IMG/VR virus record: IMGVR_UViG_3300020159_001020
Span: 1-20,612 of that record
Strand: one strand, 5' to 3'
From: a virus
Length of the DNA: 20,612 nucleotides
In this document: positions 218 to 16,478 of the stretch, piece after piece
How the letters are laid out: the number at the start of each line of letters is the position of its first letter
Numbering within the stretch: the first letter of the stretch is position 1
Notes under the pieces: model-generated
Database searches by the model: none
What the model was told of the DNA's origin: nothing
The model's input: the letters and a program-made list of their open reading frames with translations, nothing else
Translations under genes and position numbers: made by a program

Positions 218-1324
218 ATGTCATATCGTAAAAAAGGTAATGAGATCTTCGAAAATCTCTTTGTACTAGAAATTGCAAATAACCATTGGGGCAGTTTAGA
301 GCGTGGATTAAAACTAATCTACGAACATGGTAGTGTTGCACGTATCAACAATGTCAAGGCTGCAATTAAACTACAGTTCAGAGATGTGGATGAGTTTATT
401 CATCCCGAGTTCAAAGGCGATCAAGATAATCGTTACATCAAGAAAACCGAACAGACCAAACTAAGTAGAGATGACTTTGCTGTTATGGTTAACAAGATTC
501 GTGACATGAGCTGTATTCCAATGAGTACACCATTTGATGAAAAGAGTGTGGACTTGTGTATTGAATTTGACATGCCTATTATTAAAATTGCATCTAGCGA
601 TGTTAATGATTGGCCTTTAATTAGCAAGATTGCTAGTACACGTCGTCCTACTATTATTAGTTCAGGTGGCGCAAGTGAAAAGGACTTGGATGATATTGTC
701 ACTTACTTTGCCAAACGTGATATTCCGCTAGCAATTAACCATTGCGTCAGTTTATATCCTAGCGAAGATAACGAGCTAGAACTAGATCAAATTGATTACT
801 TGCGGAATCGTTATCCAGATAACGTAATTGGTCTAAGCACACATGAATACCACGATTGGAGTTCTAGTATATTAATGAGTTATGCCAAAGGTGCACGTAC
901 TTGGGAACGCCATGTTGACATAGATTATAATAACGTGCCTGTTAGCAGCTATTGCTCGTTACCAGAACAATGCGATACATGGTTTAAAGCCTATCACAAA
1001 GCAGTTGAAATGTGCGGAGGACGTAGTACCTCACGTCGTGTTATCAGTCGCAAAGAAACAGAATATCTTGATCAGTTGGTGCGTGGTGCTTATGCACGTC
1101 GCGATCTAGAACCAGGATATAAAATACACAAGGACAGTTTTGAGAAAGACTTTTATCTTGCTATCCCGTTACGCAAAGGGCAATTAAGTTGCCGTGAAAT
1201 CATGAATGGCGAAAGCTTAACACAAGCAATCAAAGCCAACGATCCGTTAACTATTGATCACATTGATGGTCCATATGCAACAAACACATCACTCAAAAAT
1301 CTAATTAAAAACAGAGGACTATGA
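218..1324 (+). CDS. NeuB-like N-acetylneuraminate synthase family protein with SAF domain
   Basis: Predicted cytoplasmic PEP-condensing sugar-acid synthase of the NeuB type (368 aa, close to the usual 340-360). NeuB landmarks appear in order: EIANNHWG (18-25, for E-I-x-x-N-H-N-G), AIKLQF with Lys51, TPFDEKSVD (104-112), IIKIASSD with Lys123, TIISSGGAS (145-153), CVSLYPS (176-182), GLSTHE (205-210, where NeuB has GLSDHT) and ERHVDID (230-236, for E-K-H-F-x-x-D). Residues 285-350 form an SAF/antifreeze-like domain (RGAYARRDLEPGYKI onward), which caps the active site in NeuB enzymes. Start ATG 218 has a good Shine-Dalgarno, AAGGAAA at 207-213. The stop overlaps the next start by four bases (ATGA). 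Family membership is firm. The substrate is not: departures around the canonical DHT and NHNG motifs suggest a sugar other than ManNAc. Confidence 0.88.
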   Translation: MSYRKKGNEIFENLFVLEIANNHWGSLERGLKLIYEHGSVARINNVKAAIKLQFRDVDEFIHPEFKGDQDNRYIKKTEQTKLSRDDFAVMVNKIRDMSCIPMSTPFDEKSVDLCIEFDMPIIKIASSDVNDWPLISKIASTRRPTIISSGGASEKDLDDIVTYFAKRDIPLAINHCVSLYPSEDNELELDQIDYLRNRYPDNVIGLSTHEYHDWSSSILMSYAKGARTWERHVDIDYNNVPVSSYCSLPEQCDTWFKAYHKAVEMCGGRSTSRRVISRKETEYLDQLVRGAYARRDLEPGYKIHKDSFEKDFYLAIPLRKGQLSCREIMNGESLTQAIKANDPLTIDHIDGPYATNTSLKNLIKNRGL

Positions 1325-3168
1325 GATTAGCTGACTATGTAGCTGAACGCTGCGCTGAAGCTGGTGCAAGACATGTATTTCTTGTAACTGGCGGAGGTGC
1401 AATGCATCTCAATGATGCATTTGGACGTCACAAAGACTTAACACCAGTATGCTTTCATCATGAACAAGCGGCTGCTATTGCTGCTGAAAGTTACTATCGG
1501 ATCAATAATCAACTTTGTGTGCTTAACGTAACAACAGGACCTGGTGGTATTAATGCACTCAACGGAGTGTTTGGTGCTTATGTAGACAGTTGTGGTATGC
1601 TTGTAGTTAGTGGACAAGTCAAGAATGAGACATACTTACGTAACTACTCAATACCAATGCGACAACTTGGTGATCAAGAAGTAGACATTGTTAGCATGGC
1701 CAAGCCTGTTGTCAAGTATGCAGTAACTCTCCATGATCCCAAACTGATCAAAGAAGTCATGGACAAAGCCATATTCCTTGCCACACACGGTAGACCCGGT
1801 CCTGTGTGGGTGGATATTCCAGTTGATATACAAAGTACACAAATTGATCCTGATTCATTGACAGGTTGGGACAAAAATTTAACCACACTGGCACTAGATC
1901 CTGCAGTGACAGAAAACACACGACTGGAATTACATACATTAGGCATTGACCAATATGAACGTGATATTCCTGCAATTATTGATCGCTTGTATCAAGCCAA
2001 ACGTCCAGTAATTTATGCTGGAACTGGTGTACGGTTGTCTGGCATGCATGATGAGTTTCTGGAGTTAGTTGAACGATTAGGCGTACCAGTTGTTAGTAGC
2101 TTTAATGCATACGATGTTCTTACCAATGATCACCCACAGTACTGTGGGCATCCTGGCATGGTTGGTGATCGTGCCGGTAACTTCACTGTACAAAATGCAG
2201 ACTTTGTACTGATACTCGGCAGTAGACTAAACATTAGAATGATCAGTTATAACTATAAAAATTTTGCCAAGAATGCATACAAGGTCATGGTTGATATTGA
2301 TCGTGCTGAATTAGACAAGCCCACACTCAATATTGATCTCAAGGTACACTGCAATCTAAACAATTTTATCGCAGAGTTTTTGGAAAAAACTACAGTATAT
2401 GTAAGACCCGAAACACATACAGAATACTTGAATTGGTGCAGAGAACGTGTTGCCAAGTATGATCCAGTATTACCAACATACGAACACAAAATAGATTCTG
2501 TAAATCCTTATTTGTTCTTCGACAATTTTTTTGACAAACTAGATAACACAGACATAGTTGTTAGTGGTAACGGTAGTGCCAGTGTTATAAGTGGACAAGC
2601 TGGTAAACTCAAAGTAGGACAAAGATTTTACAGTAACTCAGGTAATGCAAGCATGGGCTACGACTTACCTGCTGCAATTGGTGCCAGTGTTGCTGCAGGT
2701 GGCAACAAGGTATATTGTATTGCCGGCGATGGCAGTATAATGATGAACTTGCAAGAACTACAAACTGTAGTGGGTTACCGATTACCTATCAAAATCATTA
2801 TTGTTAATAATAACGGATATCATTCAATCAAACAAACACAACAAGCATACTTTAGCGACAATGTGTTTGGAACCAATCCCAAAGATGGAGTAACACTACC
2901 AGACTTTGTTGCACTTGGTGTTGCTCTTGGTATTATGAGTCATCGTGTTGATACCATGGATGCGTGGAATAGTGATATGGTACAAATGTTGTTAAAGAAC
3001 AACGAACCTGCTATAATAGAAGTTGTAGTTGACCCGGATCAAATGTTTGCACCAAAACTTGCAGCACGTAAACTTGAAGATGGATCAATGTTAGCACCAA
3101 GTTTAGAATACATGAGTCCATTCTTGCCAGATGCCGAGATGGAACAGAACATAATCAAGGATGAATAA
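1321..3168 (+). CDS. ThDP-dependent acetolactate-synthase-like enzyme
   Basis: 615-aa thiamine-diphosphate enzyme with the three-domain acetolactate synthase/pyruvate oxidase layout. The N-terminal pyrimidine-binding domain carries FLVTGGGAMHLNDA (20-33) and the conserved catalytic glutamate in HHEQAA (Glu48). The central nucleotide-binding-like domain is around 210-370. The C-terminal domain has the ThDP/Mg motif, with GDG at 469-471 and NNN near 496-498. A C-terminal tail of about 40 residues (SLEYMSPFLP) extends past the core and recalls IlvB-like proteins of O-antigen clusters more than housekeeping IlvB. No regulatory small subunit is next to it. In sugar clusters such homologues (YerE type) transfer an acetyl unit from pyruvate onto a keto-sugar; this role is inferred from neighbours. 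It overlaps the previous stop at ATGA and the next start at TAATG, so translation is probably coupled. Confidence 0.88.
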   Translation: MRLADYVAERCAEAGARHVFLVTGGGAMHLNDAFGRHKDLTPVCFHHEQAAAIAAESYYRINNQLCVLNVTTGPGGINALNGVFGAYVDSCGMLVVSGQVKNETYLRNYSIPMRQLGDQEVDIVSMAKPVVKYAVTLHDPKLIKEVMDKAIFLATHGRPGPVWVDIPVDIQSTQIDPDSLTGWDKNLTTLALDPAVTENTRLELHTLGIDQYERDIPAIIDRLYQAKRPVIYAGTGVRLSGMHDEFLELVERLGVPVVSSFNAYDVLTNDHPQYCGHPGMVGDRAGNFTVQNADFVLILGSRLNIRMISYNYKNFAKNAYKVMVDIDRAELDKPTLNIDLKVHCNLNNFIAEFLEKTTVYVRPETHTEYLNWCRERVAKYDPVLPTYEHKIDSVNPYLFFDNFFDKLDNTDIVVSGNGSASVISGQAGKLKVGQRFYSNSGNASMGYDLPAAIGASVAAGGNKVYCIAGDGSIMMNLQELQTVVGYRLPIKIIIVNNNGYHSIKQTQQAYFSDNVFGTNPKDGVTLPDFVALGVALGIMSHRVDTMDAWNSDMVQMLLKNNEPAIIEVVVDPDQMFAPKLAARKLEDGSMLAPSLEYMSPFLPDAEMEQNIIKDE

Positions 3169-4250
3169 TGGATTTTAACAAGTTTAGTAAAACTGTTTCG
3201 TATGGGCATTTTGAAACACTAGATCACGGAAAGCCGGTCTGGATTTTCGGAGCAGGTGGATTTGCACGTAGCATTGCCAAAGTATTAATCAGCGAAGGGT
3301 TTCAAGTGTACGGATTTGTTGTATCAGATCCCAAGGAAAAAACTTTACTTGATCTTCCTATAGTGAGTTGGAAGGATGTTACCTGGGAAAATGTACAACT
3401 GGCAATGGGGGTATTTAGTCACAATGTGCCTTATACCAAGATGCTTGCTGAAGCACAGGAACATGGTTTTAGCAAAGTGTTTATGCCTTGGGAATTGTAT
3501 GCACAATTTAAAGATCAACTAGGCTGGCGGTATTGGTTAACGCCATTGAATTATATTACTGATCATCTGCAAGAAATTCAAAATGTTTATAATTTAGTTG
3601 AAGACGAGGAAAGTCGTTCGTGTTTACTGAATGCACTATTGTTCCGTGTTGGACTAGCCAACGAACGAGCAGATTATAAAAGCAAAGAGCCACATTACTT
3701 TAACAAACTATCATTGGCTAAATTTAAAGGGAAAGCTATTACCTTAATAGATGGTGGTGCTTACACTGGCGACACATACCAAGATGCCATGGCAGCAACT
3801 CCCGTTGATACAGCTTTCTTGTTTGAACCAGAACCTAAAAACTTTAGTCAACTAACACACAATGTTGGCAGCAACGCAATATGCTATCCACTAGCACTTG
3901 CAGACACATATAAAATTCTAACTTTTGCTAGTGATGTAGGTCCAAGTAGTGCTGTAGTCAAGCAAGGCGATATACATATTGCTGCTGGTGCTATTGATCA
4001 ATTATTTCCTAAACGTCATATAGACTTTATCAAGTTTGATATCGAAGGATGCGAAGCTGATGCCATTCGTGGTGCAGAGGAAACTATTAAACGTGAGCGT
4101 CCAGTACTTGTAATGGCAGGATATCACAAGCCTGGTGACTTATGGGAATTACCATTATTGTTAAATTTGATATGTGAGAACTACAAGTTCTATATTCGTC
4201 AACATGACTACAATAGTTTTGAATCAGTAGTTTACGCTATTCCTAATTGA
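3168..4250 (+). CDS. FkbM-family SAM methyltransferase with N-terminal Rossmann-like region
   Basis: 360-aa protein in two parts. Residues 23-110 start with VWIFGAGGFARSIAKVL and look like the small Rossmann-like PglD/NAD-binding module often placed before sugar-modifying enzymes. Residues 190-350 are an FkbM methyltransferase: motif I LIDGGAYTGDT (193-203), acidic FEPEP (219-223), and KFDIEGCEADAIRGA (289-303), which matches the family's K-x-D-x-E-G-x-E-x-x-x-L-x-G-A signature, followed by H320-K-P-G-D-L. FkbM enzymes O-methylate sugars and secondary metabolites. The start is fixed by the TAATG overlap with the previous stop. The position in the operon suggests methylation of the sugar made here or of the glycan carrying it. 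The family is clear; the substrate is unknown. Confidence 0.88.
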   Translation: MDFNKFSKTVSYGHFETLDHGKPVWIFGAGGFARSIAKVLISEGFQVYGFVVSDPKEKTLLDLPIVSWKDVTWENVQLAMGVFSHNVPYTKMLAEAQEHGFSKVFMPWELYAQFKDQLGWRYWLTPLNYITDHLQEIQNVYNLVEDEESRSCLLNALLFRVGLANERADYKSKEPHYFNKLSLAKFKGKAITLIDGGAYTGDTYQDAMAATPVDTAFLFEPEPKNFSQLTHNVGSNAICYPLALADTYKILTFASDVGPSSAVVKQGDIHIAAGAIDQLFPKRHIDFIKFDIEGCEADAIRGAEETIKRERPVLVMAGYHKPGDLWELPLLLNLICENYKFYIRQHDYNSFESVVYAIPN

Positions 4251-4251
4251 T

Positions 4252-5058
4252 ATGAAAATTGCTGTCCTTGGTGCAAGAGGGTTTGTAGGATCAAGTCTTG
4301 CTACATATTTTAAACACAATCACACAGTTGTCCCGGTAACACGACAAACAATTGATCTACTAGATCCTATAAAAGTTAGAAAGTGGTTAGAACATGAGAA
4401 ATTTGATGTTGTGGTCAATGCTGCTACTACTATGGGCAATAACAATTTACTTGCTGATACCCGTAACAATTTAGGCCTGTTTATGAACTTCTATAACAAT
4501 TCAGAATTGTTTGGTAAGTTTGTTAATTTAAGTTCGGGCGCAGAGCTTGATCGCAGTAGAGATTTACTAGAAGCTCCTGAAGAAGATATATTTACAGTAA
4601 TGCCCTCGGACAGTTATGACTTTGGTCAAAATATGAAAAGTAGAATTTGTGTACGTACACCAAATTTTTATACCATACGAATCTTTAATTGCTTTGGACT
4701 TGGGGAAATACCAACTAGAATATTTCCACGTTTTCTTTTAGCAGGAAATACTCCATTAACAATTGCTAATGATAGATATTTTGATTATTTTGGTATCAAG
4801 GATCTTTGTTTGTTAGTTGATTATTTTGCTAATAATGAATCTGTGCATAAAGATGTTAACGCAGTATATCTAACCAAGTACAAAATTAGCGAAGTAATTG
4901 AAAGATTTTGTACATTAAACAACTTAACACCAAACTATGTAGTTGAGTCTACAGGCGGTAATAACTATACCGGCAGCGGTCGTAAACTTGCTGAATTACC
5001 TGTACAATTACAAGGATTAGGCCACTCACTATCAACTTATCATGTCCCAGTATATTAA
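4252..5058 (+). CDS. NAD-dependent epimerase/dehydratase-like protein, atypical active site
   Basis: 268-aa extended SDR-like nucleotide-sugar protein. The Rossmann start is clear: MKIAVLGARGFVGSSL with GxxGxxG at 7-13. VVNAATT (54-60) and VNLSSGAE (91-98) occupy the expected later strands. The catalytic Tyr-x-x-x-Lys site reads Y122-D-F-G-Q126-N-M-K129, so glutamine sits where lysine is expected and the nearest lysine is three residues late. The substrate-side motif RIFNCFGLGE (around 142-151) and a YFDYFGIKDL segment are retained as in GDP-fucose-synthase/epimerase relatives. At 268 aa it is shorter than typical epimerases (about 310-340). Start ATG 4252 lies one base after the previous stop. 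It may be a reductase or binding protein with altered chemistry rather than a standard epimerase. Confidence 0.78.
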   Translation: MKIAVLGARGFVGSSLATYFKHNHTVVPVTRQTIDLLDPIKVRKWLEHEKFDVVVNAATTMGNNNLLADTRNNLGLFMNFYNNSELFGKFVNLSSGAELDRSRDLLEAPEEDIFTVMPSDSYDFGQNMKSRICVRTPNFYTIRIFNCFGLGEIPTRIFPRFLLAGNTPLTIANDRYFDYFGIKDLCLLVDYFANNESVHKDVNAVYLTKYKISEVIERFCTLNNLTPNYVVESTGGNNYTGSGRKLAELPVQLQGLGHSLSTYHVPVY

Positions 5059-5827
5059 TCAATTATTTGATTTATCTAAAAAGAATGTAGTAATCACCGG
5101 ATCAGGCGGTCACTTGTGTGGTGCAATGGCTCGCGGGCTTGCACAAGCAGGTGCTTCATCTATCACTATCTGCGATTTGCGTTTAGAAAAATCACAGGCC
5201 GTTGAGGCCACAATAAACAGGCTTGGTTACACCAATACTCTTTCGCTTGTATTGGATGTTGGAATTAAACAGTCACACGAGTTTGTATTAACTTCAGTCA
5301 TTGATAGATTTGGTGGTTGCGATGTACTAATTAATGGTGCTGGTATTAACGGTTCTACGCCATTCCTTGATATAACAGAACAAGAATGGGATAACATTAT
5401 GAACTCGCAACTCAAAGGCACTGTGTTTGGTTGTCAGGTATTTGGCAAACACATGTTAGAACGTGGAAGTGGAAGTATTATTAATGTTAGCTCAGCTAGT
5501 GCAGATCCACCTTTAAGTAAAGCATTTACTTACAGTGTGGCCAAAGCAGGTGTTGTAAACTTAACCAAGAACTTGGCAAGAGAATGGGGTACACAAGGAG
5601 TACGTGTTAATGCTATACGACCAGGATTCTTTCCTACAGAATGGAATCGTAAAAACTTTATTACTGCAGAACGTGAAGCAGCAATACTAGGACATACACC
5701 AATGCGTCGGTTTGGCGAACCAGAAGAACTTGTTGGTGCTATTATATATCTAGCATCAGATGCTAGTCAATTTGTTACTGGCACAGAAATAACAGTAGAC
5801 GGAGGCTTTGCATGCCAAACAATTTAA
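5042..5827 (+). CDS. Short-chain dehydrogenase/reductase (classical SDR), first of two
   Basis: 261-aa classical SDR, the usual 250-260 length. The cofactor motif TGSGGHLCG (19-27) is one residue longer than standard TGxxxGxG, as in the GGxGxLGxAMA subgroup. CDLRLEK (44-50) after strand 2 places an aspartate where NAD(H)-preferring enzymes have one. INGAG (97-101) replaces NNAG. The catalytic set is Ser150/151 in INVSS with Tyr164 and Lys168 in TYSVAK. The C-terminal HTPMRRFGEPEELVGAIIYL and TGTEITVDGG are typical of sugar-acid and sugar-alcohol dehydrogenases. It starts 17 bases inside the preceding gene and overlaps the following SDR by 16 bases. It probably reduces a keto-sugar intermediate of this operon; the substrate cannot be read from sequence. 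Confidence 0.88.
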   Translation: MSQYINQLFDLSKKNVVITGSGGHLCGAMARGLAQAGASSITICDLRLEKSQAVEATINRLGYTNTLSLVLDVGIKQSHEFVLTSVIDRFGGCDVLINGAGINGSTPFLDITEQEWDNIMNSQLKGTVFGCQVFGKHMLERGSGSIINVSSASADPPLSKAFTYSVAKAGVVNLTKNLAREWGTQGVRVNAIRPGFFPTEWNRKNFITAEREAAILGHTPMRRFGEPEELVGAIIYLASDASQFVTGTEITVDGGFACQTI

Positions 5828-6555
5828 GACGTACAGTTATTATCACTGGTGGAAATCGTGGTATTGGTTGGGACATTACACAACGTTTTTCCTCAGCCAA
5901 TTACGATGTATTTGTAGGATCACGTTCTGGCATGGAACAAAATCTTGTTAATGTGACACATGTTCCAATGGATGTACGCAAGGCCGAAGATCACGCAATG
6001 TTGGTTAATCATGCATTGCTGCGCACAGGTCGAGTAGATGTATATATTAACAATGCAGGATATTCAGAATGGCGCCCTATAGATCAAATTGACGAAGAAT
6101 TCTTAGATGACATTATTAATACAAATCTCAAAGGTGCATTCTGGGGTTGCAAGGCTGCATATAATGCAATGAAGTCAGGTGGTAGTATTATTAATATTAG
6201 TAGCATTGCCGGTAAACGTGGTAGCAGCAATAACTCTGCGTATGTAGCCACTAAGTTCGGAATGAATGGCATGACGCAATCTCTAGCAAAAGAGTTTGGT
6301 CCAAATGGTATACGTGTCAATGGCTTATGCCCTGTGCTTATCCCTACACCAGGATTAATGACAGCACTAGAAAGCAAGTATGCACCTGGAGGAGATAATC
6401 CTATTGAGTGGATGCAAAAGTTTGCACAAGAACAAACAGCATTACACAGATTGCCTACCGGTAAAGAAGTAGCAGATGCTTGTATGATGTTAGTTAATAC
6501 TACTGCTATTACAGGACAGAACATCAATGTTGACTGCGGAGTGTTTCCTCAATAA
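5812..6555 (+). CDS. Short-chain dehydrogenase/reductase (classical SDR), second of two
   Basis: 247-aa classical SDR with textbook motifs: TGGNRGIG (12-19), NNAG (80-83), INISS with Ser130/131, and Tyr144/Lys148 in AYVATK, then a C-terminal TGQNINVDCG. It is complete and looks catalytically competent. GSRSG follows strand 2, hinting at NADP preference since a basic residue is present and no acidic one, but this is only suggestive. It is clearly divergent from the SDR just upstream (different cofactor motif and tail), so this is not a recent tandem duplication. It overlaps its upstream neighbour by 16 bases and its downstream neighbour by one (TAATG). The likely role is a second stereospecific ketone reduction in the sugar pathway. 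Confidence 0.88.
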   Translation: MPNNLRRTVIITGGNRGIGWDITQRFSSANYDVFVGSRSGMEQNLVNVTHVPMDVRKAEDHAMLVNHALLRTGRVDVYINNAGYSEWRPIDQIDEEFLDDIINTNLKGAFWGCKAAYNAMKSGGSIINISSIAGKRGSSNNSAYVATKFGMNGMTQSLAKEFGPNGIRVNGLCPVLIPTPGLMTALESKYAPGGDNPIEWMQKFAQEQTALHRLPTGKEVADACMMLVNTTAITGQNINVDCGVFPQ

Positions 6556-7307
6556 TGCATAACATTATTCCGTGTCCTTGCTGCGATTCGTTAGATCAAA
6601 CCAGTATACCTGCGTATATGTCACAGTTCGTTGTATGGCGTACTACTGGAGTTAAACCTGAATCAAATCCTAGAAATTTATTAATTCAGTGTAATCATTG
6701 CAATTACTATTTTAGTGACACAAGATTTACTGATCAAGAACTTGCTCGATTGTATACAGGTTACAGGGGCACAGAATACAATCAAATGCGAATAGAGTGC
6801 GAACCAACGTATCAAGCAGTCATGTACTCTGATGTGTATATTAAACAACGTAAAGAATTTATTGATAGATTAATTGGTCAGCATGTTGCTGATATTGAAT
6901 CTGTTTTGGACTACGGTGGTGATGATGGAAAATATATCCCAGAGATGTTTGCCACTGCAGATAGGTATGTTTATGATCTTAGCGGTGCAGATACAATATC
7001 CGGAATTAAAAAATACAATACTGCACAACAACAAAAATTTGATCTTGTTATGAATTGTCAAGTACTTGAGCATGTGTCAGATGTAAATCAGTTAATAGTC
7101 AATCTCAAAGATCTTACTAACAATTACCTGTATATCGAAGTACCTGCATACAGAAAACCACCTGCAATTGATATAGTGATAGGCGAGCATCTTAACTTCT
7201 TTCGTAAATCATCATTAATAGCACTACTAAATAGACACAACATTCAAATAGTTGATACCGCGGTGGATTATGATTTGCAAGTATTAGCTGTTCTAGGAAA
7301 AATATGA
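6555..7307 (+). CDS. Zinc-ribbon class I SAM-dependent methyltransferase
   Basis: 250-aa protein. An N-terminal treble-clef/zinc-ribbon-like part has Cys7-x2-Cys10 and Cys46-x2-Cys49. A class I methyltransferase core follows, with motif I SVLDYGGDDGKYI (116-128), where the usual GCGxG is GGDDG, and a later FDLVMNCQVLEHVSD segment typical of Methyltransf_11/23 proteins. A Cys-rich N-terminus plus methyltransferase recalls sugar C-methyltransferases (TylCIII/NovU-like), which act on 4-keto sugars, but those are about 400 aa and have a C-terminal domain missing here. It overlaps the preceding SDR stop at TAATG and the following gene by four bases (ATGA). The methyltransferase call is strong; C- versus O-methylation is open. 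Confidence 0.82.
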   Translation: MHNIIPCPCCDSLDQTSIPAYMSQFVVWRTTGVKPESNPRNLLIQCNHCNYYFSDTRFTDQELARLYTGYRGTEYNQMRIECEPTYQAVMYSDVYIKQRKEFIDRLIGQHVADIESVLDYGGDDGKYIPEMFATADRYVYDLSGADTISGIKKYNTAQQQKFDLVMNCQVLEHVSDVNQLIVNLKDLTNNYLYIEVPAYRKPPAIDIVIGEHLNFFRKSSLIALLNRHNIQIVDTAVDYDLQVLAVLGKI

Positions 7308-8242
7308 AAAAGATTGTATATGTAACAGGCTGTTTAGGTCTCATTGGTTATCGTGTTACTACAAGATTATTAGACGAAGGTTATTATGTTATCGGTGTAG
7401 ATAAACAAACTTATGCTAGTAATATAAATTTTCTTCCTATGCTGCAAAAAAGTCAGCAATTTAAATACATTAATAGCGATATTAATGATTTAGATCGTCT
7501 TGTAGACTGCGATTATATAGTTAACTGTGCAGCAGAAACACACGTAGATAATAGCATCATGAGTTCGGATGTATTCCTAAAGAGTAACGTAAATGGAGTA
7601 CATCATCTCTTGACTCTTATTCAACAAAAGAGTCGTTTTAAAATGCCCACACTGATTCATTTTAGTACAGATGAAGTGTACGGCGACATAGAACAAGGTG
7701 CACATAAAGAAACAGACTTGTTAAAACCAAGCAACCCGTATTCTGCAACCAAAGCAGCAGCAGATATGTTGGTGCTGGCATTTGCTAGAACATTTAGTAT
7801 TCCTTATATTATTTTACGTCCAACAAATAACTACGGTGTTGGACAATATGTAGAAAAACTTATACCCAAGACAGTAAAGTACATGGAACTTGGTCGTAAG
7901 GTTGATCTACATGATAAAGGAACGCCTAGACGTACTTGGTTACATATCAGTGATACTGCTGAAGCAGTGTTAACTGTTATCAAGTCTGGTGTAGAAAATG
8001 ATATCTTTAACATATCAGGCAACTACGAAGATAGTAATCTAAATGTAGTACAAAAAATATTTTATCACTTTGGTATTACAGATTACCAAGATCACATTGT
8101 GGATCTTGTTCGCCCGGGACAAGATGTAAGATATGCAATTGATGACAGCAAACTAAGAGCTCTAGGTTGGGAACCTGTTGCTGACTTTGATGAAGAACTT
8201 GCTAGAATTGTTAATTGGTACAGACTTAACTTTGTGTGGTAA
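7304..8242 (+). CDS. dTDP-glucose 4,6-dehydratase-like (RmlB-like) extended SDR
   Basis: 312-aa extended SDR. The NAD-binding motif is TGCLGLIG (8-15). DKQTYASN (33-40) parallels RmlB D-x-L-T-Y-A-G-N. NCAAETHVDNSI (74-85) matches the dehydratase A-A-E-S-H-V-D-x-S motif. STDEVYG (121-127) holds the Asp-Glu pair that performs water elimination in 4,6-dehydratases, and Tyr146/Lys150 in YSATK complete the site. RPTNNYGVGQ and RTWLHISDTAEAV are also RmlB-type. The protein is somewhat shorter than RmlB (330-360). It probably makes the 4-keto-6-deoxy intermediate that feeds the upstream operon enzymes; the nucleotide carried is unknown. It is the last gene of the + strand operon, overlapping its upstream neighbour by four bases and its convergent downstream neighbour by 17. 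Confidence 0.9.
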   Translation: MKKIVYVTGCLGLIGYRVTTRLLDEGYYVIGVDKQTYASNINFLPMLQKSQQFKYINSDINDLDRLVDCDYIVNCAAETHVDNSIMSSDVFLKSNVNGVHHLLTLIQQKSRFKMPTLIHFSTDEVYGDIEQGAHKETDLLKPSNPYSATKAAADMLVLAFARTFSIPYIILRPTNNYGVGQYVEKLIPKTVKYMELGRKVDLHDKGTPRRTWLHISDTAEAVLTVIKSGVENDIFNISGNYEDSNLNVVQKIFYHFGITDYQDHIVDLVRPGQDVRYAIDDSKLRALGWEPVADFDEELARIVNWYRLNFVW

Positions 8243-9954: not shown

Positions 9955-10030
9955 TTTTATTCAGGCTGTAATTGAATCAAGACAACGCCAGGCCGATTTG
10001 TACTTACGTAGTTTGAATGCCGGTATCTAA
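9938..10030 (+). CDS. Possible 30-aa helical peptide overlapping the end of the 57-aa gene
   Basis: ATG 9938 opens a 30-codon frame ending at TAA 10028-10030. It overlaps the previous gene's last codons by 17 bases and the convergent fusion gene's last 27 bases. The peptide starts MALVRSFIQAVIESRQRQAD and continues with LYLRSLNAGI, an amphipathic helix with arginines on one side, in the style of DUF1127-like or phage host-takeover peptides. Overlapping start-stop arrangement matches the rest of the genome. There is no clear Shine-Dalgarno and the length is near the chance level, so this is tentative. Confidence 0.35.
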   Translation: MALVRSFIQAVIESRQRQADLYLRSLNAGI

Positions 10031-10780
10031 ACGTTCAATATCTGATTCATCACATCGTTCACCAAATTGAATTTCTATAATACTACAGGGTACTGTAAAT
10101 GGATTTGTTAGTTGGTGCCAAGTATTCTTTGGTACTTTAAATTCGTCATACTTGGTAAGTATTTTAGGAGGATGGTGCAAGTCACCGGGCATGGCCATAT
10201 TAATCATACAGGCTCCAGCAGTAACCATCCAATATTCACTACGCTGCTGATGTATCTGCATACTGAGCATTTTACCAGGCTCTACTGTTAGTACCTTAAC
10301 TTTTGCGCCCGGGATATCGTGTATGGTTCTATAACTACCCCATGGGCGATCCACTTCTTGAACAGTCCAACGTCGGAGTATATCGCTGCTACTGTTTAGC
10401 TTGTTGTCTCCGCCTACTCCAAATGCAAACTCTATTCCTGTTACAGACATTTCGGGAATATTGTCTGCTGTACGATCTCCGCCATTGGCAAAAACAATTT
10501 TATCATTAGGATAGGTACGTTTAATTAATTCCAATAATTCACAAGCCGAATCATCCGTGTCTTCTACTGGAATTGTTGCATCAACAGATTTAAGATTTTT
10601 AATAATTTCTCGTCGCTCCGCAATCGGCATAAATGCTCGACCTTTTTTACGCTCTAGCCAAGCATCGCTGTTTATGCCCACGATTAATACGTCACCTAAT
10701 GCTCTAGCTTCAGATAATAATTTAATATGCCCCGAATGTATTGGGTCAAACCCGCCGGTAACTACAACTATTGTACTCAT
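10004..10780 (-). CDS. Fusion of HxGH nucleotidylyltransferase with ManC-type cupin
   Basis: 258-aa two-domain protein. Residues 1-137 are a cytidylyltransferase-like domain: VVTGGFDPIHSGH with the HSGH site at 15-18, and SSSDILRRW (130-138) in place of the ISSTxIR motif; closest in style to the RfaE/HldE adenylyltransferase half. Residues 139-250 are a cupin like the phosphomannose isomerase end of ManC: VDRPWGSY (143-150), LSMQIHQQRSEYWMV with Gln175, His177 and Glu182, and His222 in WHQLTNP as putative metal ligands. Together they suggest activation plus isomerisation of a sugar phosphate for glycan synthesis; the precise sugar is unknown. This domain pairing is not one I know as standard (ManC carries a GT-A-type guanylyltransferase instead). 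It is the last gene of the leftward operon, overlapping the methyltransferase gene by four bases. Confidence 0.85.
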   Translation of the reverse strand: MSTIVVVTGGFDPIHSGHIKLLSEARALGDVLIVGINSDAWLERKKGRAFMPIAERREIIKNLKSVDATIPVEDTDDSACELLELIKRTYPNDKIVFANGGDRTADNIPEMSVTGIEFAFGVGGDNKLNSSSDILRRWTVQEVDRPWGSYRTIHDIPGAKVKVLTVEPGKMLSMQIHQQRSEYWMVTAGACMINMAMPGDLHHPPKILTKYDEFKVPKNTWHQLTNPFTVPCSIIEIQFGERCDESDIERLDTGIQTT

Positions 10781-11538: not shown

Positions 11539-11779
11539 TTGTTAATGCCTCAATGATAACTTGTTCTTTTAGTTCTTGTAGTCTTGGTGCCAGTTGATAG
11601 CAAGCTTCAGCTATCTCATTATTGGTTCCCCAACTACGCTGTGTGGCAAGATAGCTTGCCCATTTACCTACAGAGTCTTTTAATAGTTGTATATCTACTG
11701 CATTGTGCCGCGGACGAGCCCGGCAACACAAATCGTATTCTTCAAGCAATTGATCTGCGTATTCTTTGAAGTCTGTCAT
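11525..11779 (-). CDS. Unknown 84-aa protein downstream of uvsY
   Basis: Small soluble protein, predicted all-helical, with a Cys-Cys pair near residue 18 (EEYDLCCRARPRHNAVDIQL) and a helical C-terminal half (NEIAEACYQLAPRLQELKEQ). I do not recognise a family. It starts within the last codons of uvsY (four-base overlap, ATGA) and overlaps the following methyltransferase start by 14 bases, so it is translated as part of the recombination operon. A role as a recombination or replication accessory is possible from position only. Confidence 0.65.
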   Translation of the reverse strand: MTDFKEYADQLLEEYDLCCRARPRHNAVDIQLLKDSVGKWASYLATQRSWGTNNEIAEACYQLAPRLQELKEQVIIEALTNGTV

Positions 11780-12231
11780 GCAATTACAATATCTTCCATA
11801 CCTGCGGTACGTAGTCGCACAACGTGACCCAGCATAAAGTTTTTACTTTCTAGGCCTTTCATGACACCTAACCACTTGTTTCGTAAGAGAGCAACTTCAT
11901 TAATGATTGTTTCAAAGTCCACAACTTCATCTTCTCCATCAACATACTTCTCGGCGTCACGACTTGTAAGTGCTCTTGCGTAAGCCTCCAAGTACTTTTG
12001 GAAGTGCTTGCGTCTAATTTTTCGTAATTGAATATTAAGAAAATTGAGGATGGCTTCGATTTCCTGGAGTTGATTAAAACGGTGTTCAGTGACTCCAGGT
12101 AAATTAGATAAGGACTTTTCAACGTTACCCCTAATAGCTATTTCACTTTTAGCCGCAAAAAGTTCGCCTTCATAGTAATCTATACAGGCAGGAATCTCTC
12201 CTAGGTTAGATACTACTCGATTATACCACAT
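11776..12231 (-). CDS. uvsY: UvsY-like recombination mediator
   Basis: 151 aa, slightly longer than T4 UvsY (137). UvsY loads UvsX onto gp32-coated single-stranded DNA during recombination-dependent replication and repair. Features agreeing with the family as I remember it: IDYYEGELFAAKSEIAIRGN near the N-terminus, LPGVTEHRFNQLQEIEAILN, a basic helix RKIRRKHFQKYLEAY suited to DNA binding, KYVDGEDEVVDFE, then LLRNKWLGVMKGLE. It is a predicted helical protein without catalytic motifs. Context confirms it: UvsX lies one small gene upstream on the same strand, and gp32 is in the same gene cluster. It starts in the TAATG overlap with the 74-aa gene. Confidence 0.88.
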   Translation of the reverse strand: MWYNRVVSNLGEIPACIDYYEGELFAAKSEIAIRGNVEKSLSNLPGVTEHRFNQLQEIEAILNFLNIQLRKIRRKHFQKYLEAYARALTSRDAEKYVDGEDEVVDFETIINEVALLRNKWLGVMKGLESKNFMLGHVVRLRTAGMEDIVIA

Positions 12232-12455
12232 TAGTTTTCGTAATCAATTTCGTCGTCGTCGTCGTCGCCTATATATTCGTCAAGGCTACGTCGAGTATAA
12301 CTATCTGTGCTACCAAACTCCTTTAACTCTTTTTCACTAAGAGCATCAGCAAGCATACTCATTAAAGTGTCGCTGGCTGCTTGGCGTTCTTTGGTAGGCA
12401 CATACTCTTTAAGAATAGTGTAAGTTTCAATTAGAACTTCTACGTCAATACTCAT
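12231..12455 (-). CDS. Small acidic protein between uvsX and uvsY
   Basis: 74-aa protein of unknown function with a helical N-terminal two-thirds (VEVLIETYTILKEYVPTKER onward) and a strongly acidic C-terminus containing five consecutive aspartates (IGDDDDDEIDYEN), encoded by a GAC-type triplet repeat. Acidic tails of this kind can mimic DNA or bind basic DNA-binding proteins, as the gp32 tail does. Since it is translationally coupled on both sides (four-base overlap with uvsX, TAATG overlap with uvsY), a role in regulating presynaptic filament assembly is a reasonable guess, not a demonstrated one. Confidence 0.72.
   Translation of the reverse strand: MSIDVEVLIETYTILKEYVPTKERQAASDTLMSMLADALSEKELKEFGSTDSYTRRSLDEYIGDDDDDEIDYEN
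12251..12267. repeat. CGT/GAC trinucleotide microsatellite
   Basis: 17 bases of uninterrupted CGT repeat on the + strand, read as GAC (aspartate) codons in the 74-aa gene. Such tracts are prone to slippage in steps of one codon, which would change the length of the acidic tail without breaking the frame. Confidence 0.8.
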
Positions 12456-13522
12456 TCGTCGATTTCCTCTTCAACAGGTTGAACAGCAACGGCTTCTTTG
12501 TGTGGATGTGCTACAAAGTCTGCCATAACTTTATCTAGGCTATTGTCTTCGTTACGCTCCCACGCTTTGCGGAACTGCTTGATAACTGTGCCGTCTGCTA
12601 GCGTGTATTTAAGACTATTGCCTTCCTTGCTTAATAAACCTTTTCCTTCAAACATGTCTACAAGTCCTGAGTATGGATTCATACCAGATTCATATGGAAT
12701 CTTAACTTGTACTGATTCAAATGGTTTAGCATAACGTGTTTTCATAATCTTACATGCTGCACGTATACCTTTTACTTCACTAATCTTGTTACCATCCTCA
12801 TCTTCTTTTAGTTTCAACTTACGCATAGCAACAACGATACTGCTTGCGTAAATAAAGCCTTGTCCACCGCTGATCTTGTCATCAGGATCAAACATGTCCT
12901 GACTTGCGTAGGTATGATTGGTACATACCAACCCAATATTTAAACTACCAAACATGTTAACACAGTTACGAACCAGTGCTGTTAGTGCTTTAGGCTTACG
13001 GCCCATGTCACCTTTCAAGTCACCAGCTTCAAATTGATTAACGTCAGTTGGTGTTAACAACATGCCCAAACTGTCTAACACGATTAATACCTTGGGACGG
13101 TCAGTTTCTGGCAATGTCTTATACTCTTTAACAAACTCAGTAATCATTTTAGCAACGTCATCAATCATCGCCATATTGAGCTTGAGAAGTTTATCATCGC
13201 TTGTGTCAACTCCAAGCGCATGTAACCACGCTTCATCCAATGCGTTCTCAGTGTCAATGAGGATAACATAAATGCCTTGCTCCTGAGCATTCTTAACGAG
13301 ATTTCCCGAGCAGATAAAGGATTTACCCGCGCCAGATTCGCCAGCAAATACAGTAACTTTGCCCATCGGAATACCTTTATTAAAGTCGCCGCTAATAAGG
13401 TAGTTGAGCGCAAAGTTGTTTGTGCTGATCCAGTCTGTTGGATCATTGAAGCCGATACTAATGCCGTCAATACTTTTTGTGATACTTTTGCGAAATTTTG
13501 ATACGTCAAACGGTTTTCCCAT
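12452..13522 (-). CDS. uvsX: UvsX RecA-like recombinase
   Basis: 356-aa T4-type RecA homologue (T4 UvsX is about 390) that forms ATP-dependent filaments for strand exchange. Walker A is GESGAGKS (61-68), Walker B is VLIVLDS (145-151) and the post-strand TENALDE segment is at 91-97. Loop L1 lies around GDMGRKPKAL (171-180), TNHTY is at 201-205, and the L2-region glycine motif KISGGQGF is at 216-223. The C-terminal 30 residues are acidic and valine/proline-rich. The ATG at 13522 has AAGGAA (13530-13535) seven bases upstream and lies inside the 3' end of the radical SAM gene (17-base overlap). It is followed by the 74-aa gene and uvsY, giving the classic partner set. Confidence 0.95.
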   Translation of the reverse strand: MGKPFDVSKFRKSITKSIDGISIGFNDPTDWISTNNFALNYLISGDFNKGIPMGKVTVFAGESGAGKSFICSGNLVKNAQEQGIYVILIDTENALDEAWLHALGVDTSDDKLLKLNMAMIDDVAKMITEFVKEYKTLPETDRPKVLIVLDSLGMLLTPTDVNQFEAGDLKGDMGRKPKALTALVRNCVNMFGSLNIGLVCTNHTYASQDMFDPDDKISGGQGFIYASSIVVAMRKLKLKEDEDGNKISEVKGIRAACKIMKTRYAKPFESVQVKIPYESGMNPYSGLVDMFEGKGLLSKEGNSLKYTLADGTVIKQFRKAWERNEDNSLDKVMADFVAHPHKEAVAVQPVEEEIDE

Positions 13523-14663
13523 AATATTTTTCCTTGTCTAAGTTTCTATCTAATAGTTCTTTAAAATCATTGTAATTATCTGCTTTTGGAGCACAAAAGC
13601 CACACATGCATAAATCCTTAACACATTGTATAACAGGCATAGATCCGTTGTCAAGTTGCAATTTTACGGTTTCTATAATAGAATGGTAATTTTTTAAATT
13701 ACCAAGAGGTTCTACACGACCGGTTGTACTTGTGCGACAATCTTTGTTGGTATACACCTCGCCATCAACTTGCCGCACAAATAAAAAGAACCAATTTACA
13801 CTACAATACCAGTCTCGAAAACCTTGCTTGTGTACAAAAGATACACAAGATTTTAAATCATTATTCAAACTCAATTTTCTACCACCACAACATGCTCGAC
13901 CTTCATCTATACTTTGCATTTTATCTTTATTAGATACTAAATCTAAATTATTTTTATATTCTTCTTGTTTAGACAGAGGTACAGAGTTTAACCAGAAAGT
14001 TTTTAATCTAGAAAATTGATCAGGCGTGTATGCCCATTGATTATCTAACGGTTTCTCAACATATCGTATTTTGTTGTCTTTACAAAACTCAATAATCTTT
14101 TCTGATTTTGCAAAATAAACTGGATCGTTGTGCATCATAACAACACACTTAAATCGTTTGTTTTGTTCTTTAAGATAAAGAACGTTATCTAAATATTGTT
14201 GTTGTTGCTTAGGTAAAATTTCAGAATGATAGCTAACAGAAAATTCATCTATTAACGGAACAATTTTTGTCCATTGATTACTACCTACTACGCCATTGGT
14301 AGTACAGGTTATTGTTAAGTGCCATCGATCTTTGTATGAATTGTATTTTTCCCCACAAGCCTGTAAAATTTCTACAATATGGGGATGAAATACACTTTCT
14401 CCTCCATATATATTTAAAATTACTTTACGTTGACTTGGCTTTTTATATTGCATATACAAATCAACATACTGATACATAAAATTAATAGTTCGTAAACATT
14501 CCTCCAATGTAGGATGTTTTGTAGAATTGTCGTGTCCGCCGTCGATACCAGTACCGCAATAGCTACAATCTAAATTACATAATTTAGTAACTTCCCAATC
14601 TAATAAAAAACTAGGAACATTAGTTGGATCTAATGCAAAGCCAATTGATTTAACATCACTCAT
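13506..14663 (-). CDS. Radical SAM protein with SPASM-like C-terminal cysteines
   Basis: 385-aa radical SAM enzyme. The [4Fe-4S] site CxxxCxxC is Cys29, Cys33 and Cys36 (KLCNLDCSYC), and YGGES (86-90) is the usual GGE SAM-contact motif. The C-terminal third carries further cysteines: Cys258/259, Cys273, Cys287, Cys309, Cys347, Cys352, Cys354 and Cys357 (ending CVKDLCMCGFC). This resembles SPASM/Twitch auxiliary-cluster domains, which usually act on peptides or proteins. The start overlaps the upstream 270-aa gene by eight bases; the 3' end overlaps uvsX by 17. That wedged position means it is expressed with the recombination genes. Substrate unknown: candidates are the 270-aa partner, a small peptide, a nucleotide or a glycan intermediate. 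Confidence 0.88.
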   Translation of the reverse strand: MSDVKSIGFALDPTNVPSFLLDWEVTKLCNLDCSYCGTGIDGGHDNSTKHPTLEECLRTINFMYQYVDLYMQYKKPSQRKVILNIYGGESVFHPHIVEILQACGEKYNSYKDRWHLTITCTTNGVVGSNQWTKIVPLIDEFSVSYHSEILPKQQQQYLDNVLYLKEQNKRFKCVVMMHNDPVYFAKSEKIIEFCKDNKIRYVEKPLDNQWAYTPDQFSRLKTFWLNSVPLSKQEEYKNNLDLVSNKDKMQSIDEGRACCGGRKLSLNNDLKSCVSFVHKQGFRDWYCSVNWFFLFVRQVDGEVYTNKDCRTSTTGRVEPLGNLKNYHSIIETVKLQLDNGSMPVIQCVKDLCMCGFCAPKADNYNDFKELLDRNLDKEKYYGKTV

Positions 14664-15468
14664 ATTTTACTTCTATACTTTTTAAAAAGCGGTACCGGTC
14701 CAATAACTGCGATACAGCATCTTTATCTTCGATGTAACCTAAAGGTATTTTACCGTGCCCTAATGTTTTGTTAAATCGATCTATGTTATTACGTTCAAAC
14801 CAAGTAACATAATCGTTATCTGCAAAGCAATCAAACTCATCAAACGTTAACATCGATTCGCCGCTGTAATAATGCAAATTTTTTGCACCAGTATAATCAA
14901 TGGATAAATTGTCTTCGTATAAATCAATATATTCTTTGCCCAATTCAACATAATGCAAAAACAAAGTGCCAGCAGGAAACTTAAATTCAAATTCGTTATA
15001 ATCTTCTATAGATAACGGATGTCGTCTATATTGATCTTTATCAAAACTAATATAAAGTGCCGGATGAGTTTCTTTGTTTAGTTCTACACGATGTACAAAA
15101 AAATTTAAATCTCTAATTGCTTGTTTTAATTCTTTGTTAGCAATATTAAACAAACGAGTTGGCTTCCCAAATTCTCCACTTAGTTGTTCAAATTTAACAT
15201 GCAAATAGTTATAGTATTCTTGGGAGGATATATCCTGTATATCAATAAAATCCTTTAGATACTTATTAATAACTAAACAAGAATCTCGCAAACATTTTTT
15301 ACTATAGTTCAATGAATATAAAGTTGCAAACGCTTCATGTTGATTAAATTCACAGTTCTGCAGACACCATATCAATTCACCAACATATTTGCTAACAAAT
15401 TTAGTGTCGTAGAGATGAATATCAAAAGACGCCTCTGCAGAGGCGCCTAATGTTACAACAAGTTTCAT
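14656..15468 (-). CDS. Unknown 270-aa protein paired with the radical SAM enzyme
   Basis: Not recognised. It is soluble, rich in Tyr, Phe, Asp and Asn, without signal peptide or membrane helices. Visible segments include MKLVVTLGASAEASFDIHLY at the start, HPALYISFDKDQYRRHP in the middle, then a beta-rich section FPAGTLFLHYVELGKEYIDL and LHYYSGESMLTFDEFDCFA. Two histidines and acidic residues in the second half could bind metal, but no known motif is complete. It starts two bases after the gene 32 stop and its end overlaps the radical SAM gene by eight bases, so the two are translationally linked. Its first codons contain a GC-rich palindrome acting as a possible terminator of the gene 32 transcript. 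Confidence 0.72.
   Translation of the reverse strand: MKLVVTLGASAEASFDIHLYDTKFVSKYVGELIWCLQNCEFNQHEAFATLYSLNYSKKCLRDSCLVINKYLKDFIDIQDISSQEYYNYLHVKFEQLSGEFGKPTRLFNIANKELKQAIRDLNFFVHRVELNKETHPALYISFDKDQYRRHPLSIEDYNEFEFKFPAGTLFLHYVELGKEYIDLYEDNLSIDYTGAKNLHYYSGESMLTFDEFDCFADNDYVTWFERNNIDRFNKTLGHGKIPLGYIEDKDAVSQLLDRYRFLKSIEVKYE
15424..15445 (-). terminator. Terminator-like hairpin just after gene 32, inside the next gene
   Basis: A perfect 16-base palindrome, CGCCTCTGCAGAGGCG (15430-15445), is followed in leftward transcription by TCTTTT (15429-15424), the layout of an intrinsic terminator. It lies 26-41 bases past the gene 32 stop and inside codons about 8-13 of the 270-aa gene. Partial termination here would give abundant gp32 mRNA and reduced read-through into the radical SAM, uvsX and uvsY genes. 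Confidence 0.55.
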
Positions 15469-15470
15469 TA

Positions 15471-16478
15471 TTACTTGCTACGATTACGAATCATGGCCAA
15501 GATATCCTCGGCCTTTTGACTTGATGGTTTAGCTGCCACTGGTGCTGTTGCAACAGGTGCATCATCTTCATCTGCTTCAAATGGTGCAGGTTGTGCTGCT
15601 ACTGCACCTGAGTTAGGAGCAACGTAACCTTGGGCTGCTGCAGGTGCTGCTTTGGCTGCTGGTGCTGCTTCTGCATCACCACCTTTGCTCTGGAATCCAG
15701 CTGGTTTAAAGTATTGACCCCACTTGTCTGGATCGTATGCTTGACCATCTACACTTGCTTCAAACATTTCTTTGATTACTTTAAGTTCTACTTCGCCTGG
15801 ACGCTTTGGCAAGAAGTCTGACAAGTTGTACAACCCGTGAGCATCAATTGCTGCTTGCTCTTCTGAGGTTAGTGCAGTTTCTTTGCGTGACCATTTGCTT
15901 GTTGAGTAGTCTGCATAACCACCTTTACTTGTTTTAGTAACAGTAAAGTCTAGACCACCTGTGTAGTCTGTTGGCATGCTTTCTAGTTCTGGATCCATCA
16001 GTGCAGCCTTGATCAAGTTAAAGATCTGTGGACTGATAATGAAACGACGAATTGGATTTTCTGGGGTCTTGTCATCACCTAGTGCGTTTTCACGTACAAA
16101 GCCTTGGAACAAGTAAGATTTTTTCTTCCAGTACTTACGACCCATTTCCTCTAGAGCTGGATCTTTAAACCATGTACGCACTTCAGCAAGAATTGGGCAA
16201 GCGTCGCCATACATCTCTACACATGGTACTTGTACTTGAACTGGTTTACTGTCCGACTGACCTTTGATACCAGCAAATGGTAACTTGATCATTAAACGTT
16301 CTACCCAAAAGAAATCATTCTTTGCGTTTGCGTCTGGTAAGAAACGGATTTTACTGCTTGAGCCTTCTGGAATGTTCCAGTGTGCATAGATGGCGTTGTC
16401 GCCTTGTGATTGCCCGCCTTGTCCACGGGTTTCTTGCGCTTGTAGTTTTGCGCGAATTTCTGCTAATGAAGTTGCCAT
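15471..16478 (-). CDS. 32: gp32-like single-stranded DNA-binding protein
   Basis: 335 aa, near T4 gp32 (301). It coats single-stranded DNA in replication, recombination and repair. The N-terminal basic region (MATSLAEIRAKLQAQ, 1-15) corresponds to the cooperativity domain. The core includes KIRFLPDANAKNDFFWVERL and YWKKKSYLFQGFV (about 116-128), typical of T4-like gp32 OB folds. An Ala/Pro-rich linker (around 265-300) leads to an acidic region (FEADEDDAP) and terminal helix AEDILAMIRNR. The zinc-site region keeps only two cysteines (Cys86 and Cys94, the latter in CPIL), where T4 has CPVC and a third cysteine plus His64. The start has AGGAG (16487-16491) eight bases upstream and its own sigma70-type promoter. 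Confidence 0.93.
   Translation of the reverse strand: MATSLAEIRAKLQAQETRGQGGQSQGDNAIYAHWNIPEGSSSKIRFLPDANAKNDFFWVERLMIKLPFAGIKGQSDSKPVQVQVPCVEMYGDACPILAEVRTWFKDPALEEMGRKYWKKKSYLFQGFVRENALGDDKTPENPIRRFIISPQIFNLIKAALMDPELESMPTDYTGGLDFTVTKTSKGGYADYSTSKWSRKETALTSEEQAAIDAHGLYNLSDFLPKRPGEVELKVIKEMFEASVDGQAYDPDKWGQYFKPAGFQSKGGDAEAAPAAKAAPAAAQGYVAPNSGAVAAQPAPFEADEDDAPVATAPVAAKPSSQKAEDILAMIRNRSK

Follow-up and report, generated by a model that had tools for sequence, protein, structure and literature searches.

Why a radical S-adenosylmethionine (SAM) enzyme should be encoded amid phage recombination genes is the question raised by the viral record IMGVR_UViG_3300020159_001020, a 20.6-kb viral fragment (20,612 nucleotides (nt); the window hereafter). 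On its minus strand, gene 32, the gene of a 270-amino-acid (aa) protein named here P270, the radical-SAM gene and uvsX follow one another with spacings of +2, −8 and −17 nt, and the open reading frame (ORF) listing confirmed the four genes and these distances as an earlier note, made from the letters alone, had given them. That note took the two inner genes for a candidate undescribed phage system, which might act on a replisome protein, on the 270-aa partner or on a host factor, with a cargo locus at an insertion point as its last alternative. The reading favored here, with a probability of about 0.5, is that the gap between gene 32 and uvsX is a cargo hotspot of a jumbo-myophage clade, that the enzyme is a tailoring enzyme and that P270 is an accessory protein.

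The cargo slot between gene 32 and uvsX

The slot is bordered upstream by gene 32 (15471..16478, minus strand), which encodes a single-stranded DNA-binding protein of 335 aa (phrog_1192 SSB, E 2.5e-65), and downstream by uvsX (12452..13522, minus strand), which encodes a recombinase of 356 aa (phrog_97, E 1.1e-68) with 62–69% identity to those of the cultured jumbo myophages Phosso, CBB, Atu_ph07, XaC1 and Munch. In the cultured relatives CBB, Atu_ph07, XaC1 and Vibrio 2.275, gene 32 directly adjoins uvsX. It also lies beside uvsX in Munch and Phosso, as judged from position and size (gene 32 is annotated there as hypothetical). For an unbiased sample, relatives were picked via gene 32 alone, giving 55 complete non-redundant loci, all metagenomic. 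The slot was empty in 18 of them, mostly with gaps of 51–86 nt, and filled in 37. Empty sites and differing inserts at the same site, between conserved flanks, are the features of a phage cargo hotspot, and it was the last alternative of the earlier note that the data supported.

The inserts comprised 94 genes, of which 30 were radical-SAM genes and 15 belonged to P270 or to P263, a 263-aa family that also occupies this slot. Radical-SAM genes, one or more, were present in 16 of the 55 loci; the window-type enzyme was found in 5 loci, P270 in 5 and P263 in 9. Genome-wide, contigs of the clade of 337–374 kb carry 11–17 radical-SAM genes each, about 2–3% of their genes, and the enrichment in the slot is significant at p < 1e-21, a value that is only indicative since the loci are related by descent. 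The commonest identified cargo consists of radical-SAM enzymes of several distinct subfamilies, including the window-type enzyme, N_Twi (NF033640, E 1.9e-76), one of B12-type and another of 304 aa. Other cargo included a short-chain dehydrogenase/reductase (SDR)-like gene recognized by Pfam and, by motif reading only, sulfotransferase-like, 2-oxoglutarate-oxygenase-like and glycosyltransferase-like genes. The cargo occupies the stretch from the gene 32 terminator described below to uvsX, in the orientation of both flanking genes, and is exchanged among relatives; the probable route is homologous recombination within gene 32 and uvsX, which are the conserved flanks.

The interval between uvsX and uvsY likewise takes radical-SAM genes of several subfamilies. 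At three loci (L088, L095 and L110), a radical-SAM gene between uvsX and the following 74-aa gene is split into a core ORF of 205–213 aa and an ORF of 80–104 aa, Cys-rich where read. Multiple radical-SAM genes in phages have been reported before: a marine T4-like genome was described with 12 of them (PMC5332604), and pelagimyophages with radical-SAM cassettes as variable cargo (PMC7029224), in both cases without an assigned function. The giant phages of the present clade have more than 10 such enzymes each, and the natural occurrence of empty, one-gene and two-gene slots permits a comparison of relatives for their role.

The close arrangement of P270 and the enzyme could also be explained by a dedicated two-gene protein-modification system, in which the enzyme modifies P270 itself or, with P270 as an adaptor, gp32, UvsX or another replication protein. 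Of 25 two-gene loci, 22 have the pair overlapping by precisely 8 nt, P270-superfamily genes terminate five-gene radical-SAM cassettes, a fold relative of P270 in Atu_ph07 is probably encoded amid radical-SAM genes, and peptide maturases commonly have SPASM-type folds. However, each gene was found alone many times. Among 71 non-redundant rows, which had partly been collected using P270 and the enzyme themselves, P270 was alone in 35, the enzyme was alone in 15 and both were present in 15. A 76-row UvsX tree calls for 26 changes of locus type, with 11 for the enzyme when taken by itself and 10 for P270. Distances of P270 and the enzyme were uncorrelated (rho 0.00) and those of the enzyme and UvsX were correlated (rho 0.59), and the two proteins therefore appear to be neighbors more than partners. 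Both genes have been gained and lost repeatedly, and their pairing is not obligate.

No residue of UvsX or gp32 was found to track the presence of the enzyme beyond the phylogenetic signal, and residues of UvsY and of the 74-aa protein did so only as descent explains. In P270, the strongest such signal fell in C-terminal codons shared with the start of the enzyme gene. In addition, the P270 reading frame is broken in 3 of 79 loci (L156, L157 and L158), by gene decay or sequencing error. The dedicated system is therefore considered unlikely, and the action on the replisome that had been proposed is left unsupported. The pair itself does recur in other genomes, in the 15 rows mentioned, and tblastn found neither gene in the cultured phage records searched. 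An apparent opposition of the two genes on the UvsX tree was set aside because the loci had been gathered by these very genes.

The radical-SAM enzyme

The enzyme (385 aa; 13506..14663, minus strand) was assigned from family models, conserved cysteines and predicted fold as a radical-SAM protein with a SPASM/twitch-like auxiliary-cluster domain. PF04055 scored 31 bits, against a cut-off of 29.5, in a genomic search with frame neighbors, and 24 bits, under the cut-off, on the single protein. The CX3CX2C motif formed by C29, C33 and C36 (14556..14579, minus strand), a GGE motif and eight C-terminal cysteines (258, 259, 287, 309, 347, 352, 354 and 357; 13593..13892, minus strand) were invariant in all 75 full-length relatives. 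Together with the radical-SAM fold of the predicted structure (mean predicted local distance difference test, pLDDT, of 89.9), these data bear out the identity proposed in the earlier note. The C29/C33/C36 motif would carry the [4Fe-4S] cluster on which SAM is bound and a 5′-deoxyadenosyl radical generated. The eight C-terminal cysteines would suffice for auxiliary iron–sulfur clusters; judging from the fold and these residues, the C-terminal domain may hold one or two of them, and the enzyme may modify a small molecule, a glycan or a peptide.

The description of the enzyme as SPASM-like stood with respect to fold, since the core is followed by a Cys-rich auxiliary domain and the model matches the SPASM/twitch group. 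Foldseek matched CteB (E 3.5e-9), anSME, MoaA and ChlB, in the range of E 1e-9 to 1e-6, and VIA-align gave BlsE (Z 17.1), SkfB (16.8) and anSME (15.5). It did not stand with respect to cysteine spacing. The strict SPASM pattern is CX9-15GX4C-gap-CX2CX5CX3C-gap-C, whereas the window enzyme has C287-X13-G-X7-C309 and C347-X4-C352-X-C354-X2-C357, plus C258-C259. The SPASM model TIGR04085 gave no match to it at E 0.1, although the same model does detect Atu_ph07 gp171. Membership of the N_Twi_rSAM family (NF033640) was rejected at 33.5 bits against a curated cut-off of 170, the match covering the core only.

Relatives of the enzyme were found at 80 IMG/VR loci but, with tblastn, not among 50,697 records of cultured phages. 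A second clade unites its more distant relatives with sequences from metagenome-assembled genomes (MAGs) of Bdellovibrionota, the genes standing in multi-radical-SAM arrays; such arrays, in these MAGs and in phages, include sugar-nucleotide dehydrogenase, GT2 and SIS genes. The arrays on three contigs from Bdellovibrionota and related MAGs (L347, L348 and L350) comprise between five and seven distinct radical-SAM genes alongside membrane-protein and sugar-nucleotide genes, and resemble those in phage contigs L073 and L076–L081. From this context and from the sugar genes of the window, the enzyme is most likely one member of a large decoration or biosynthesis arsenal rather than a modifier of the replisome. 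In our opinion, the tailoring enzymes of these phages would decorate surface or virion molecules.

Several points weigh against this assignment. The enzyme has no directly coupled gene for a sugar or peptide substrate, the involvement of glycans is based on neighboring genes, and every contig of the hotspot sample is of metagenomic origin. Moreover, the closest clade of the enzyme is phage-only, and three subclades of it lie amid replication genes: close relatives, placed on different branches of the enzyme phylogeny, occupy the gap that separates the clamp loader from a 97-aa gene and the gap between primase and helicase, in addition to that between gene 32 and uvsX. Such a distribution would not be expected if the enzyme were purely cargo. 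Because such contexts recur, and because P270 paralogues are also found at uvsW, the role could still be linked to replication. The enzyme might then act on nucleotides or DNA, for instance to produce a modified nucleotide, and be kept in replication operons for co-production with the replisome. The three contexts across three subclades argue for this, as do the structural neighbors BlsE (nucleoside sugar), viperin (CTP) and DesII (TDP-sugar). It is nevertheless unlikely, since the same slot holds SDR-like, sulfotransferase-like and glycosyltransferase-like cargo without an evident nucleotide link, no recognized partner gene typical of base hypermodification lies beside the enzyme, 50 of the 55 close relatives do not have the enzyme at the slot, and the similarity to QueE is weak (E 4e-4).

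A viperin-like antiviral or counter-defense enzyme, producing a chain-terminating nucleotide, was also considered in view of the core similarity to pVip (E 2.8e-9) and to NF038283 (E 4.8e-7). The latter model reached 29.2 bits against a curated cut-off of 180 and matched the radical-SAM core only, so that viperin membership was rejected. The family of the window enzyme has eight invariant extra cysteines, which to our knowledge are not a viperin feature, and this explanation is highly improbable.

The usual role of SPASM proteins would make the enzyme a maturase of a virion-associated or secreted peptide, that is, of a ribosomally synthesized and post-translationally modified peptide (RiPP). 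The fold matches to CteB, SkfB, ChlB and SuiB are consistent with this. Jumbo phages do have pairs of such a kind, since Atu_ph07 gp170–gp171 (L188 13119–15070) and Phosso (L189 12415–14396) encode a SPASM radical-SAM protein beside a protein of 296–306 aa that ends in CHxSCHASCHxSRSRR, a tail that resembles His-Xaa-Ser RiPP tails and was seen in these two phages only among cultured records. In the window enzyme, however, the radical-SAM core starts near residue 17, with no leader-recognition domain apparent, and no small precursor gene was seen among the conserved neighbors in the 20.6-kb fragment, a distant precursor being possible. The 74-aa gene is present with or without the enzyme, and its product is therefore improbable as a precursor peptide. 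A peptide maturase is, like the nucleotide enzyme, an unlikely explanation, and a tailoring enzyme carried as cargo is preferred.

P270 and the terminator in its first codons

P270 (14656..15468, minus strand) had been described as an unknown protein, which was borne out by the absence of any match in Pfam, PHROG and NCBIfam. Sequence comparison places it in an undescribed superfamily, which accompanies both recombination genes (uvsX and uvsW) and radical-SAM cassettes and is not dedicated to the window enzyme. With its own profile, P270 was found at 79 loci, and all of those with visible flanks place it between gene 32 and uvsX. A paralogue, P270-B, lies directly upstream of uvsW (phrog_16, E 4.7e-73) in 77 of 80 loci (L190–L269). 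Another, P270-A, closes a cassette of five N_Twi-type radical-SAM genes in all four near-complete contigs (L171–L174, 337–374 kb), accompanied by genes that read, from their motifs, as glycosyltransferase-like, SGNH-like and carbamoyltransferase-like. P263 and P270 are distantly related, with a hhalign E of 4.9e-13 when nine sequences were used; with two sequences, only E 0.44 was obtained. None of P270, P270-A and P270-B was matched by tblastn in the 50,697 cultured phage records.

The structure model of P270 (pLDDT 94.1) is predicted to be a cyclophilin-like barrel with a helical insert. Foldseek returned no solved structure below E 1e-3. In VIA-align, cyclophilins make up most of the top 50 rows with Z of 9–10.6, the best one at Z 10.6 over 139 aligned residues with a root-mean-square deviation of 3.3. 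The fold thus appears to resemble the cyclophilin barrel, and function does not follow from it; the barrel would probably bind a protein or a ligand. In the viral structure library BFVD, P270 matched uncharacterized phage proteins only, one of them from Atu_ph07 (A0A2L0UZJ4, 300 aa), probably the product of gp166, a gene surrounded by radical-SAM genes. Despite this fold relative, the P270 profile (A6) had no match in six cultured jumbo phages. Two motifs stand out, N87-x2-H90-x2-F93-E94 (NYLHVKFE; 15187..15210, minus strand) and L121-N122-x3-H126-x2-E129 (LNFFVHRVE; 15082..15108, minus strand). N87, H90, E94, N122, H126 and E129, together with G167, G177, K178 and D186, were invariant in 17 diverse members, and N122, H126 and E129 in the P263 branch as well. 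The six motif residues lie in the helical insert of the model and may make up a site for metal binding or catalysis.

It is quite conceivable, if doubtful, that P270 assists recombination as an accessory factor, with the enzyme as an unrelated hitch-hiker, an explanation compatible with the enzyme being cargo. The position of P270 in the 79 loci and the location of P270-B immediately 5′ of uvsW argue for it; on the other side, 50 of the 55 relatives have no P270 at the slot, and P270-A ends its cassettes away from recombination genes. A broader proposal, in which P270-superfamily proteins are general adaptors coupling radical-SAM modification to gp32/UvsX, UvsW or the cassette, so that the recombination machinery is chemically modified, is very unlikely.

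The P270 gene also hosts the transcription terminator of its neighbor within its own first codons. A terminator scan and folding located an intrinsic-terminator-like hairpin of gene 32 (15427..15448, minus strand) in P270 codons 7–14, with a 9-bp stem and a 4-nt loop, followed by TTTTGATAT. Its folding energy is −17.5 kcal/mol (z −5.5), and the codons encode LGASxEASF. The hairpin begins about 11–27 nt past the gene 32 stop in most loci where it was found, alike in empty, enzyme-only, P263 and P270 loci. It was present in 35 of 44 P270 genes, where 200 synonymous-codon shuffles gave 11.1 on average and at most 18. Of 63 P270 paralogues not placed after gene 32, only 2 had it. Three stem pairs altered on both sides were observed in 14 same-register sequences that had been selected for having the hairpin. 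Given this conserved terminator within the start of P270, gene 32 and the downstream genes are probably not produced in equal amounts from a single unbroken transcript. The earlier view that the four proteins are made together is weakened by this hairpin and goes too far.

Neighboring genes and comparison with known systems

Downstream of uvsX, a conserved 74-aa protein with an acidic tail (12231..12455, minus strand) was identified by comparing neighbors across loci, followed by the recombination mediator gene uvsY (11776..12231, minus strand; phrog_231, E 1.1e-14), two genes after uvsX. Both P270 and the radical-SAM gene are under purifying selection (dN/dS 0.06–0.23 in testable pairs). A promoter scan found 27 candidates against 15.7 expected by chance and was uninformative as the DNA is AT-rich. 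An eight-gene cassette on the plus strand (218–8242) encodes a NeuB/PseI-like synthase, an acetolactate-synthase-like thiamine pyrophosphate enzyme and a NeuD-like/FkbM methyltransferase fusion, and also holds genes reading as SDR/epimerase; it looks like a pathway for nonulosonic acid or a related sugar. At 10004–10780 (minus strand), a HldE-like nucleotidyltransferase domain is fused to a mannose-6-phosphate-isomerase-like cupin, and this fusion gene is kept 3′ of uvsY in about two dozen loci. NeuB/PseI-like, FkbM, nucleoside-diphosphate-sugar and HldE-like genes are all present in the window.

As in the SPASM/twitch enzymes anSME, CteB, SkfB, BlsE and ChlB, its best structural matches, the window enzyme has a CX3CX2C core, a GGE motif and a Cys-rich auxiliary domain placed after the barrel core. 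It differs from them in its cysteine spacing off the SPASM consensus, an identity of 9–16%, the lack of a TIGR04085 match and the lack of a recognized partner peptide. With the N_Twi_rSAM family NF033640, compared here together with multi-radical-SAM aquatic phages, it shares the same phages, the same slot and the same arsenal, but not the N-terminal twitch half. The Bdellovibrionota MAG arrays carry a relative with 26–29% identity together with N_Twi-like and other radical-SAM genes; those arrays are chromosomal and contain sugar-nucleotide genes, whereas the window enzyme stands in a replication operon. P270 appears to resemble cyclophilins in its barrel, from the VIA-align rows, and differs from them in having no Foldseek match below E 1e-3, no Pfam match, and an insert of about 100 helical residues that bears the invariant positions. 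With these comparisons, an odd gene arrangement becomes a testable locus with defined borders. The locus is real and well supported, and it is ordinary in kind, a cargo hotspot with a radical-SAM tailoring enzyme; new in detail are the enzyme subfamily, the P270 superfamily beside uvsX, uvsW and radical-SAM genes, and the terminator in a coding start.

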